Assembly (NCBI GenBank): GCA_949287905.1
Contig: CASEHX010000018.1
Coordinates: 1-64,000, forward strand
Length of the DNA stretch: 64,000 nucleotides
Source of the DNA: an uncultured Olsenella sp.
GTDB taxonomy: Bacteria > Actinomycetota > Coriobacteriia > Coriobacteriales > Atopobiaceae
Direction: 5' to 3'
Position 1 is the stretch's first letter. The number at the start of each line of letters is the position of its first letter. Below are positions 60,654 through 64,000 of this stretch, one piece after another. The notes below the pieces were generated by a model, which made no database searches, was not told the DNA's origin, and saw only the letters and a program-made list of their open reading frames with translations. The position numbers were made by a program, and so were the translations under genes.

Positions 60654-61727
60654 ATGGAGAGAATCGAGGTGAGCGCCTCCTCGCGCTCCTACGAGGTACT
60701 CGTCGGAGCCGGGCTGCTCGGTGAGGTCGGCGGGCTCGTCCGATCGGCCACCGGCTGCGACCGCTGCTGCGTCATCACCGAGACGAACGTCGGCCCGCTC
60801 TACGCAGACGCCGTTGAACGGGCGCTCTCCTCTGTGGGAATAGAGGTTGCCCCGCGCGTGGTCTTCCCCGCCGGGGAGCCTTCGAAGACGCTCGCCACCC
60901 TCGGATCGATCCTCGAGGAACTCGCGGATCGCGAGCTTACCAGAGACGACGTCGTCATCGCCCTTGGCGGTGGCGTGACGGGCGACATGGGAGGGCTCGC
61001 CGCGGCACTCTACCTGCGAGGCGTTCGCGTGGTCCAGGTCCCCACGTCGCTGCTAGCGATGGTCGACTCCTCGGTCGGCGGCAAGACCGCCGTGGACCTC
61101 GGGGCGGGAAAGAACCTCGTCGGAGCCTTCTGGCAGCCGAGCCTCGTCGTTGCTGACGTGCTCACGCTCGCAACCGTTCCAGACGAGCTCTTCCGTGACT
61201 CGTGCGGCGAGGTGATCAAGCATGCCGTCCTCGCCGACGCCACGCTTCTCGACGAGCTTGAGACATGCCCCCTCTCCGTTGGCGACGAGCCTGAGCGCCT
61301 CTCCTCTGTCGTAGCGCGAAACGTTGCCATCAAACGCGACGTGGTGAATGCCGACGAGCGAGAGCGGGGCCTGAGGCAGACGCTCAACCTCGGACACACC
61401 GTCGGTCACGCCATCGAGGCCGCGAGCGACTTCACCCTTGGTCACGGCTCGTGCGTCGCCGCGGGCCTCTGCATCATCTCCCGTGCCGCGGCGCGACGCG
61501 GGTGGTGCTCGAAGCGACTCCCCGACCGCATAGAGCGCTGCGTGGCCGCCCACGGGCTCCCCACGGGAACCGACATAGACTCAAAGACGCTCATGCACTA
61601 CGCAACTCACGACAAGAAGCGCCACGGAGACGGGGTCAACATCGTGGTCCCGCTCGAGGTCGGTCGCTGCGAGGTTCGCCGCGTCAGCATGGACGAGCTG
61701 CGCGCACTGATTGACCTTGGTCACTGA
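60654..61727 (+). CDS. aroB: 3-dehydroquinate synthase
   Basis: Cyclises DAHP to 3-dehydroquinate with NAD and a divalent metal. The 357-residue protein has ALGGGVTGDMGGLAAALYLR, PTSLLAMVDSSVGGKTAVD, CGEVIKHAVL and LNLGHTVGHAIE, with the metal-ligand Glu and His residues present. ATG one base after the tyrA stop. The next aro gene, aroA, lies 2.1 kb downstream beyond the nuclease island. Confidence 0.95.
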   Translation: MERIEVSASSRSYEVLVGAGLLGEVGGLVRSATGCDRCCVITETNVGPLYADAVERALSSVGIEVAPRVVFPAGEPSKTLATLGSILEELADRELTRDDVVIALGGGVTGDMGGLAAALYLRGVRVVQVPTSLLAMVDSSVGGKTAVDLGAGKNLVGAFWQPSLVVADVLTLATVPDELFRDSCGEVIKHAVLADATLLDELETCPLSVGDEPERLSSVVARNVAIKRDVVNADERERGLRQTLNLGHTVGHAIEAASDFTLGHGSCVAAGLCIISRAAARRGWCSKRLPDRIERCVAAHGLPTGTDIDSKTLMHYATHDKKRHGDGVNIVVPLEVGRCEVRRVSMDELRALIDLGH

Positions 61728-61812
61728 CGACCCGGGGGCCTTCTCGCCGCCCTTCTCGCCGCTTTGCTCCGACACGGGTCGCACAGCCCACTTCTGGCCG
61801 CACTCACCACTG

Positions 61813-62020
61813 ACGGCAGTGCGCAGTGGCACCGGCCATGCGCACTGCCGACGATTATGTGCAGCGGCGTCGGTTGTGCGCAGTGCTGACAGCTGTGCGA
61901 ACGCAGCGTGAATATGAAACCGTAGCTAAATGAAGTGACGAGAAACTCCTCTTCTCGCAGCGCAGCGCATAACCGTCAGGACAGCGCATAACCGACGTCG
62001 CTACGCACGATAACCGTCCC
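61813..62020. repeat. R2 array, left: 19-bp repeats, five inverted then three direct
   Basis: In minus orientation the TGCGCA-like boxes begin at 61820, 61839, 61858, 61877 and 61896, an exact 19-base period. After the core, plus-orientation copies with CGCATAACCG begin at 61966 and 61985, with a more diverged third copy near 62004. It lies downstream of aroB with no credible coding sequence. Confidence 0.85.
61921..61957. repeat. R2 core, left copy
   Basis: This 37-base segment aligns without gaps to 63469-63505 at 27 identical positions. It contains CGAGAA (61939-61944) and TTCTCG (61952-61957), a 6-bp dyad with 7-base loop. It lies where repeat orientation flips. Confidence 0.8.
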
Positions 62021-62325
62021 ATCGCCAGCGAGGCTGCGGCCTCAAGCCAAGGGCTCCACCCGCAGATGGACAGCGCGCCGCGAGCCACACGCCACGAGAA
62101 CTTTCCATAATCCGACCAAATACGTCTTACTGAGGCTCGGACGTGGGTCAAAACCGCACGCTTCGCACACCCAGAGCCGCTCGCCGCGCAAACCCCGCCA
62201 TTTACGAAATGGCCAGCCTTGTGAAATCCCCCGTGCTCAGGCGCTCCACCAGCGGAAAGTGTGCCTCTGGCAGATTGCGTCAGTCTCATGCAGCCAACCG
62301 TCAGATGCAAGATCGCTCCCTCTCG
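62021..62325. other. Intergenic region between R2-left array and nuclease gene
   Basis: About 300 bases with no gene I can support. The nuclease frame is open upstream to 62143 but with no ribosome-binding site and unusual composition. Only the promoter at its right end is recognisable. Confidence 0.5.
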
Positions 62326-62331
62326 TATAGT
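62326..62331 (+). promoter_or_regulatory. -10 element of the nuclease gene; leaderless transcript likely
   Basis: TATAGT ends 9 bases before the ATG at 62341. A start site 6-8 bases after it would leave almost no leader, and no Shine-Dalgarno precedes the ATG. Confidence 0.55.
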
Positions 62332-62340
62332 GGTCGCACC

Positions 62341-63285
62341 ATGATCACCGTTGATGACATATCCGCGCTCTCGCGCTGGGCGGATCCCGCTCTCGCAGCG
62401 CGACTCGCCCCCGTCGAGAAGCCCGTCTTCTGGTCAACCTCCTCGGAGAGCGTCAGGGACCAGGCCGTCCTTCGTGCTGCGAGGCTCGAGGCAACGACCG
62501 AGAGACCGCTTCACGTGCTTGTCCCCTCAGCCGGAGAGCGAGTGCGCTGCCAGGGGGTCGTCTCTCACGTCTGGTCCACGCCGTTGCCTGACAACGCCCT
62601 CTATCACCTGACGCCCGAGGTTATTCTCGCCTCCCCACAATTCTGTCTTCAGGGAATCTCCGCTCGAGGCAGTCTCGTCAAGGCAGTTGTCACGGCAATG
62701 GAAATCTGCGGGGACTACGGAAGGACCCCGCACGCAAATGGCGGCTTTTTCAAACGGTCCCCTCTAGCTCGACTTCCCGAGCTTCGCGAGCACTTCGATC
62801 GCAATCACGGATACGGAGCAAAGAAGGCGAGAAGGGCGCTGAGGCACGTCGTCGAGGGCTCGCGCTCACCGATGGAGACAGTCGTCATCCTGCTCTTCAC
62901 CCTGCCAGTCGAGATGGGCGGATGTGGCCTTCCTGACCCCGAGGTCAACGTGAGAATCGAGATACCCCCCGATCTACGGGCGGCCCTGGGGAAACCGTAT
63001 GTTGTCGTCGACCTCTGCTGGAGGGGCGTTCGCATCATTCTTGAGTATGACAGCTACCTCTGGCACTCCACGGCGGCTGCCGTCGACTCTGACAGTACGA
63101 GAAACGAGGGGCTGCGCGACCTTGGCTGGATGGTTCGGTCCGTGACCGTAGGCATGCTGACAAACGACAGGATGCGACGGCATCTGGTGTCCAAGGTAAT
63201 GGAGCGTTTTGGGAGGAAGCTCCCAGCAACGCCCCAGTTTGACCAGCTTCAACATGACCTAATCCAGGAGCTGCTGACCTGCTAG
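62341..63285 (+). CDS. DUF559/Vsr-like PD-(D/E)XK nuclease-domain protein
   Basis: A 314-residue protein. The N-terminal ~165 residues are alpha/beta of unknown fold and resemble the front part of AbiEi-like/DUF559 proteins of Coriobacteriia by recollection. The C-terminal domain has a nuclease pattern: Glu179 in GSRSPMETV, Asp224 in VVVDLCWRGV, Glu235-x-Asp237 in IILEYDSYLWHS, then an Arg/Asn helix and LGWMVRSVTV, as in Vsr and DUF559. No methylase, toxin or antitoxin partner is adjacent. It sits alone between aroB and aroA, bracketed by two R2 arrays. Role unknown: defence, repair or element-encoded nuclease are all possible. Confidence 0.75.
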   Translation: MITVDDISALSRWADPALAARLAPVEKPVFWSTSSESVRDQAVLRAARLEATTERPLHVLVPSAGERVRCQGVVSHVWSTPLPDNALYHLTPEVILASPQFCLQGISARGSLVKAVVTAMEICGDYGRTPHANGGFFKRSPLARLPELREHFDRNHGYGAKKARRALRHVVEGSRSPMETVVILLFTLPVEMGGCGLPDPEVNVRIEIPPDLRAALGKPYVVVDLCWRGVRIILEYDSYLWHSTAAAVDSDSTRNEGLRDLGWMVRSVTVGMLTNDRMRRHLVSKVMERFGRKLPATPQFDQLQHDLIQELLTC

Positions 63286-63320
63286 GCGGTCGCCTCGACG
63301 CAACGATTGCAGGAGGTGAT

Positions 63321-63720
63321 GACGCTTATGCGCGGTTGCGACGGCTGTGCACATCAAAGACGGTTGTGCACACCCCTAACGGGAGGCACGACAACGCGAC
63401 GGTTGTGCGCTGCGCGAAAGGGTATGCGCAATGCCGCCGGTTGTGCGCATAGCACACATTCATAGATCCGCAGGTAGACGAATTGGCGAGAAGAACCTCT
63501 CCTCGGGAAACTTCGCACAACCGCTCAGACCGCGCACAACCGAAGCCGTTGCGCACAGCCGTCACCGTTGCGCACAGCCGTCACCGTTGCGCACCACCGC
63601 TTCCGTTGCGCACCACCGCTTCCGTTGCGCACAGCCGTCACCGTTGCGCATACCCGTCAGAAACGCGCTCAACCGCAGCCGTGCCGCGCAGCCTTCGCCA
63701 ACACGCATGGCCGTCGAGGG
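63321..63720. repeat. R2 array, right: 19-bp repeats, seven inverted then eleven direct
   Basis: Minus-orientation boxes (GTGCGC or variant) begin at 63328, 63347, 63366, 63385, 63405, 63424 and 63443. Plus-orientation copies (CGCACARCCG or variant) begin at 63514, 63533, 63552, 63571, 63590, 63609, 63628, 63647, 63666, 63685 and 63704, an exact 19-base period eleven times. The best unit is CGCACAGCCGTCACCGTTG. The minus-to-plus offset is 71 bases, identical to the left array. Confidence 0.92.
63469..63505. repeat. R2 core, right copy
   Basis: Ungapped match to 61921-61957 (27 of 37). The dyad is CGAGAA with TCCTCG, one mismatch from perfect. Confidence 0.8.
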
Positions 63721-63864: not shown

Positions 63865-64000
63865 TTGAACGCAGTCGTCAAGCCCGTACCGCTTACCGGA
63901 GAGATCAGCGCACCGTCATCCAAGTCAGAGGCCCATCGAGCCCTCATCTGCGCCGCGTTCGCACCCGGAACGACTGACATCGACTGCTCGTCCACGTCTG
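63865..64000 (+). CDS. aroA: 3-phosphoshikimate 1-carboxyvinyltransferase (EPSP synthase), 5' part
   Basis: The window ends after 45 codons. The translation reads VVKPVPLTGEISAPSSKSEA then HRALICAAFAPGTTDI and CSSTS, matching the N-terminus of EPSP synthase (PSSKSxxHRAL with the catalytic Lys, and the following CxxxS pattern). TTG start with GGAG six bases upstream. It continues the shikimate pathway of aroF-tyrA-aroB beyond the island. Confidence 0.9.
   Translation, partial: MNAVVKPVPLTGEISAPSSKSEAHRALICAAFAPGTTDIDCSSTS

Follow-up and report, generated by a model that had tools for sequence, protein, structure and literature searches.

In the REP/RAYT systems, a gene has one copy of its repeat on each side, further copies lie scattered, and gene and repeat change together (Nunvar 2010, PMC2817692). 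REPIN-RAYT systems are inherited vertically and are copied at a low rate (PMC8049555). Among nucleases, the MTES_1575 REase family (PF18741) takes its name from a protein in which it is fused to HEPN (PMC3710099). Here we describe a locus of gut Olsenella in which the gene for a predicted nuclease lies between two repeat elements of its own, in a stretch of 64,000 nucleotides that was analysed as a whole (the window). The analysis suggests an undescribed, slow-moving element whose enzyme is a nuclease of the repair or homing type rather than a transposase. To our knowledge, no known mobile or repeat-propagating system has a Vsr-type nuclease as its sole enzyme. In the literature searched, outside which most subscription journals lay, we found neither a published description of this system nor a paper linking DUF559 nucleases with inverted repeats.

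Results

Two arrays of outward-reading boxes flank the gene

The window contains two arrays of 19-bp boxes, one on each side of the nuclease gene, and both were found where the original prediction had placed them, flipping orientation around a core (Table 1). Each box consists of TGCGCAYARCCG followed by 7 loosely conserved bases (TCGCGRG), giving the 19-bp period. Minus boxes lie to the left of the core and plus boxes to its right, so that every box reads outward. The core is 62 bp long and asymmetric, with a consensus of approximately TnCAnATCCGCAGGTAGATGGCTTGGCGAGAAGAAC, and both window cores point in the same direction. The last minus and first plus boxes are indeed equally spaced in the two arrays, with a step of 74 between box starts; the earlier figure of 71 was counted from another anchor base. 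This spacing is not peculiar to the two window arrays; the step is common to all 21 measured arrays of the genome (mostly 74, 75 in five and 72 in one).

Table 1 Features of the cassette and its neighbours in the window.
Feature	Coordinates	Strand	Description
aroB	60654..61727	+	3-dehydroquinate synthase; flanks the cassette on the left; defines insertion site A
Upstream element	61814..61994	.	5 minus 19-bp boxes (61814, 61833, 61852, 61871, 61890), core 61902-61963, 2 plus boxes (61964, 61983); R1 match 61891-61975, 48 bits
Upstream core	61902..61963	+	..CCGTAGCTAAATGAAGTGACGAGAAAC..; directional, plus orientation; from alignment
Nuclease gene	62341..63285	+	314 aa; predicted AbiEi-like N-terminal domain ~1-174 and Vsr/I-Bth0305I-like catalytic domain ~175-291
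Downstream element	63323..63713	.	6 minus boxes (63323, 63342, 63361, 63400, 63419, 63438), core 63450-63511, 10 plus boxes (63512 to 63664, then 63702); R1 match 63438-63523, 64.5 bits
Downstream core	63450..63511	+	..ATCCGCAGGTAGACGAATTGGCGAGAAGAAC..; orientation as upstream core; from alignment
aroA start	63866..64000	+	right neighbour, runs off the window; SSKSEAHRALICAAFAPG motif

The 12-mer core of the box, with at most one mismatch, has 136 matches in the genome, whereas the reversed pattern has 8. For the two-box geometry the count over both strands is 40, compared to 0 for the control. Thus the arrays are not a product of chance. We rejected an RNA element as an explanation because no Rfam match was found near the arrays and the 7-nt inter-box stretches of the two arms are not mutually complementary. 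The window also contains 17 occurrences of GGCGAGAAG/CTTCTCGCC, compared to 2.3 expected (for example at 61740-61765), beside many arrays and inside the core. Although over-represented here, GGCGAGAAG is mostly located elsewhere, and it was dropped as a candidate insertion target.

A predicted endonuclease with a Vsr-type fold

An in-frame GTG at 62143 is unsupported as the start of the gene, and orthologs align from 62341. In Pfam, the only match of the protein was a weak one between its C-terminal domain and MTES_1575 (PF18741, a Vsr-type REase), with an E value of 0.0051 and 17.3 bits against a curated cut-off of 38.2. The gene had been called DUF559-like; however, DUF559 (PF04480) has no match anywhere in the genome, and the kinship is one of fold only.

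An AlphaFold2 model built from 27 relatives had a mean pLDDT of 92. In this model, residues 175-291 resemble the catalytic domain of I-Bth0305I (3r3p; Z 9.9, 2.3 Å, 94/97 residues) as well as Vsr (1vsr; Z 7.2) and TnsA (Z 6.3). Residues 1-171, modelled alone, were best matched by the AbiEi antitoxin of Streptococcus agalactiae (6y8q; Z 7.1) and then by Rv2827c (Z 4.5), scores within the range where chance resemblance is possible; the AbiEi alignment covers the region after the wHTH. Across 27 sequences from two clades, the catalytic-type residues D224, E235 and H242 do not vary, and dN/dS is 0.12-0.21 between close pairs. Thus, as judged from these sequence comparisons, the protein has been kept by purifying selection. 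With its modelled Vsr-type catalytic fold and conserved acidic and His residues, it is predicted to be an endonuclease.

Further arrays are dispersed over the genome and mostly stable

The two arrays and the nuclease had been proposed as a possible self-contained element. The 2.0-Mb Olsenella genome was searched with R1, a sequence-only box-core-box model that had this same genome as its training set and undercounts arrays in which the boxes differ. The search instead found 22 clear copies of the element and one decayed copy. The window arrays are two of the 22, and the 20 further arrays are dispersed over the genome. When 21 arrays were checked, 18 overlapped no predicted gene, and most lay 40-160 bp past a gene end rather than before a start. 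Relatives had 1-51 matches per genome, and the records with the box pattern were from Olsenella or uncultured Atopobiaceae. The arrays had no match in viral contigs and the locus none in phage records, on which grounds a phage or plasmid origin was rejected; one distant homolog (27%) was found in a Collinsella record.

The three closest species (G000, G010 and G027) share the places of most of their arrays, and of nearly all the solitary ones. G027 lacks the array at C1:205641, as do G002 and G024, where the intergenic space is short, and at C26:49134 G027 retains only two decayed boxes. A target-site duplication or clean empty site was sought at three sites, none of which was clean enough to read one. 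The shared places and the lack of a clean recent insertion indicate that the present activity of the element is low or nil, a point that counts against a mobile element.

In G000, two arrays with nearly identical cores lie ~1 kb apart (C1:212824-213075 and 213833-214141, L051), and G010 and G027 have retained the two together. At C24:7776-7918, G000 has a solitary array; between the same neighbours G010 instead has a ~1 kb gene (C18, L301), which by eye has a KilA-N/ORF6N-type look. Elsewhere, a RAYT-like Y1 gene (L235, G000:C28:15150-15488) is surrounded by several GTGACAAAGGGGTCGTAGCCGACTGTCACAT-like repeats, a separate REP family.

Every full-length ortholog lies between two arrays

Nineteen of the 31 genus genomes contain full-length orthologs of the nuclease gene (21 in all, 52-100% identity). 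When their flanks were read, arrays were found on both sides of all 21; R1 alone found both flanks of most. Usually 230-400 bp separate the upstream array from the start and 50-210 bp separate the stop from the downstream array, which in G005 is ~700 bp from the gene. The sole truncated homolog, in G026, has remnants of boxes on a single side. Most of the genomes are drafts, and some flanks end at contig borders. By eye, a small HicA/HicB-like toxin-antitoxin pair lies between the nuclease gene and the far downstream array in G005 (site B, L191), and a HicA/HicB-like pair is also seen near the cassette in G009.

The predicted co-occurrence of arrays and nuclease gene was thus borne out across the genus. 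The original prediction had also named arrays scattered without a link to the nuclease as a reason to abandon it; the arrays are scattered, with the 20 further copies described above, but they are not unlinked, as all full-length orthologs are flanked. We ourselves first held the link to be incidental because the other 14 paralogs of this genome are not next to these arrays, and gave this up because the orthologs in other species are flanked.

The cassette was found at aroB-aroA (site A) in 6 species, at sites B and C in 4 species each, at site D in 2 species, at site E as second copies in G003 and G025, and at single sites in G020, G014 and G001. Orthologs that share a site are not independent cases; counted conservatively, there are ~8 sites. 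These genomic sites are unrelated and both arrays are kept at each, which indicates, at the level of sequence, that the array-gene-array unit relocates carrying both arrays. The proposal that the arrays are the ends of a mobile unit fits this pattern. At site C of G019 (L202) the cassette is reversed relative to its neighbours, compared to G021, G028 and G029, as expected from an inversion between the two inverted arrays or from a second insertion at the same place.

The aroB-aroA junction could be read in 30 species. Six have the cassette, two (G010 and G024) have one array without the nuclease, and 22 have neither. In these 22, aroB and aroA are contiguous, as had been anticipated, with a gap of at most ~160 bp. 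A solo array that occupies the place of the full cassette of G027, a sister species, has the appearance of a loss by recombination between two near-identical arrays; a solo array at aroB-aroA may also be a separate solo insertion.

Boxes diverge together with the nuclease

The box sequence varies by species and the core is retained. The box is, for example, TGCGCACAACCG in G000 and G027, TGTACATACCCTC in G005, G009, G016 and G018, TGTACGTACCCT in G029 and G021, TGTACACGATGC in G019, TGTACACAACGC in G028, and CGTACACACCCGG in the second cassettes G003b and G025b. The upstream and downstream arrays of one cassette have a common box. The more distant two nucleases are, the less similar are their elements (rho -0.39, permutation p 0.0005; -0.22 for pairs at different sites). 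The tree of the nuclease parallels that of aroB (r 0.74, p 0.0005), and so inheritance appears to be mostly vertical, with relocations between clades.

Solitary arrays best matched the cassette of their own genome in 16/43 cases and that of their own clade in 29/43. A strict match to the own cassette therefore fails, and the remaining solitary arrays look like leftovers, or orphans, of other cassettes. G025, which has two cassettes, has solitary arrays of both box types and of a third type without a cassette.

Private flanking repeats recur beside paralogs

The nuclease family has 15 members in this genome. We compared the 450 bp upstream of each with the 450 bp downstream, and 10/15 shared a repeat of >=15 nt between the two flanks that was private to the gene, compared to 0/134 controls. 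These repeats are usually part of an inverted repeat whose sequence differs from gene to gene. A clade of paralogs at a fixed locus (G008, G009, G012, G013, G015 and G023) likewise carries, on both sides, inverted repeats whose arms are private to each species, with G013 showing one side at the exact-match setting.

Homologs are present in 28/40 genomes from other genera of the order, and 8/29 tested loci there have a flank-shared repeat. Among these is G051, from another family, with CCGCAGGTCAG in both elements, and the elements beside the homologs in G051, G035, G064 and G031 contain a similar GCAGGTA/GCAGGTC string. The core motif GCAG[GC]T was not enriched beside other paralogs (3/28 flanks compared to 23/260 controls) and R1 had no match beside other paralogs or in other genera. 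We therefore rejected a universal core for all paralogs and kept it for the window subfamily only.

Discussion

The array-nuclease-array cassette is present once in the window. We consider it probable that this cassette is an old, mostly vertically inherited mobile element, or one that was once mobile and is now domesticated, which behaves in the manner of REP/RAYT with an unrelated enzyme. In the mechanism that we propose, the nuclease would bind and cut these elements and so bring about their copying. Its AbiEi-like N-terminal half would bind the boxes that face outward to the left and right of the core, and the fixed 74-bp step would position the catalytic half, of Vsr/homing type, above the core. 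Once the core had been nicked or broken, repair could copy the element, core and boxes, to another intergenic place; alternatively, repair of the core break might move the whole cassette. Solitary arrays would be non-autonomous copies, or solo remnants after loss of the gene between two arrays. Besides the low present activity, two observations weigh against this reading: many solitary arrays do not best match the cassette of their own genome, and the core motif is not enriched beside the other paralogs.

The main rival, which we regard as unlikely, is a regulatory use of the boxes, with the nuclease-fold protein or another DNA-binding protein as a repressor and the arrays as its operators, so that the element would be immobile and the system would consist of autoregulation and a scattered regulon. 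AbiEi antitoxins bind their own promoter at inverted repeats, and the modelled AbiEi-like fold of the N-terminal domain could by analogy do the same. The rigid step length, the intergenic position of 18/21 arrays and their stability in close species would also suit operators. However, every cassette has an array downstream of the gene too, the unit changes site and retains both arrays, solo arrays remain at aroB-aroA, and the majority of arrays are downstream of a gene instead of before a start. A pure repressor, moreover, would not need the catalytic-type residues that are conserved here. The Vsr/REase-type fold and the many fast-changing paralogs per genome would be at home in defence or self/non-self recognition, where the nuclease would cut invading DNA and the chromosomal arrays would be decoys or protection sites. 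A defence module had indeed been suggested, but there is no PADLOC model match, the fixed neighbours include no linked defence genes, the searches of viral contigs and phage records were negative, and private repeats on two sides with solo copies are unexpected for a restriction-like system; we judge this reading improbable.

In another rival reading, the arrays are REPINs mobilised by resident RAYTs (Y1 transposases), with the nuclease as a passenger. Y1_Tnp proteins of RAYT size do occur in 28/31 genus genomes. However, 0/12 RAYT loci have these arrays, several having other repeats of their own, G004 and G019 have the cassette and arrays with no Y1_Tnp match, and the gene that is always flanked is the nuclease, not the RAYT. 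RAYT as the mover is thus largely refuted and very improbable, and because RAYT loci lack these arrays and cassettes occur without Y1, we propose that the nuclease itself may act on the elements. Chance placement of intergenic repeats near the gene can be practically dismissed: although arrays are abundant in some genomes (up to 51 matches), 22 arrays in 2 Mb would give a chance of ~1e-4 for one gene, and the flanking of 21/21 orthologs on both sides at ~8 independent sites refutes it.

The mobile, REP/RAYT-like reading of the cassette may extend further. We hold tentatively, at a little under an even chance, that Vsr/homing-type nucleases, each with private inverted repeats on both sides and scattered copies, spread these repeats without a transposase or recombinase in at least two families of the order, with ~15 paralogs per genome that each have their own repeat. 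This would be a second, unrelated invention of the REP/RAYT kind. The recurrence of nuclease-repeat pairing across paralogs and genera offers many natural pairs for tests of co-change between a nuclease and its DNA site. If true, it would mean a new route of repeat spread in bacterial genomes and a testable function for a large protein family now called hypothetical.

Several known systems share parts of this design. The catalytic domain is predicted to have the fold and the D/E/H residue pattern of Vsr and I-Bth0305I (EDxHD), but here there is an extra AbiEi-like N-terminal domain, cognate repeats lie on both sides, and there is no intron or mismatch-repair context. MTES_1575, which the C-terminal domain matches weakly and below the cut-off, was described as a domain of large HEPN/transglutaminase fusions, with no repeats described (PMC3710099). 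TnsA of Tn7-like transposons has a related nuclease fold (Z 6.3), and the box arrays resemble the transposase-site arrays at the ends of such elements; in contrast, the gene here is small and stands alone, with no TnsB/TnsC partner found between the arrays. The N-terminal fold resembles AbiEi-type antitoxins at a score where chance is possible (Z 7.1, in the region after the wHTH), but here it is fused to a nuclease, and the neighbours are aroB and aroA, with no AbiEii toxin gene beside it. The BrickBuilt MITE of Porphyromonas gingivalis is similar in having ~20 intergenic copies, with tandem 23-nt units inside an inverted-repeat element; unlike the boxes here, its tandem units do not flip around a core, and its abstract mentions no cognate gene (PMC4596501).

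REP/RAYT shares several features with the cassette. In both, a nuclease-type gene always lies between two repeats of its own, scattered non-autonomous copies are intergenic, the repeats change together with the gene, and inheritance is mostly vertical. The enzymes differ, as RAYT is a Y1 (HUH) transposase of the IS200/IS605 type that binds and cuts its repeat in single-stranded form and the protein here is Vsr/homing-endonuclease-like. So do the repeats, since REPs are single hairpins headed by GT(A/G)G (GTAG), whereas here 19-bp direct boxes are inverted round a directional 62-bp core. Finally, unlike REP/RAYT, the unit of gene and flanks described here appears to relocate between clades.
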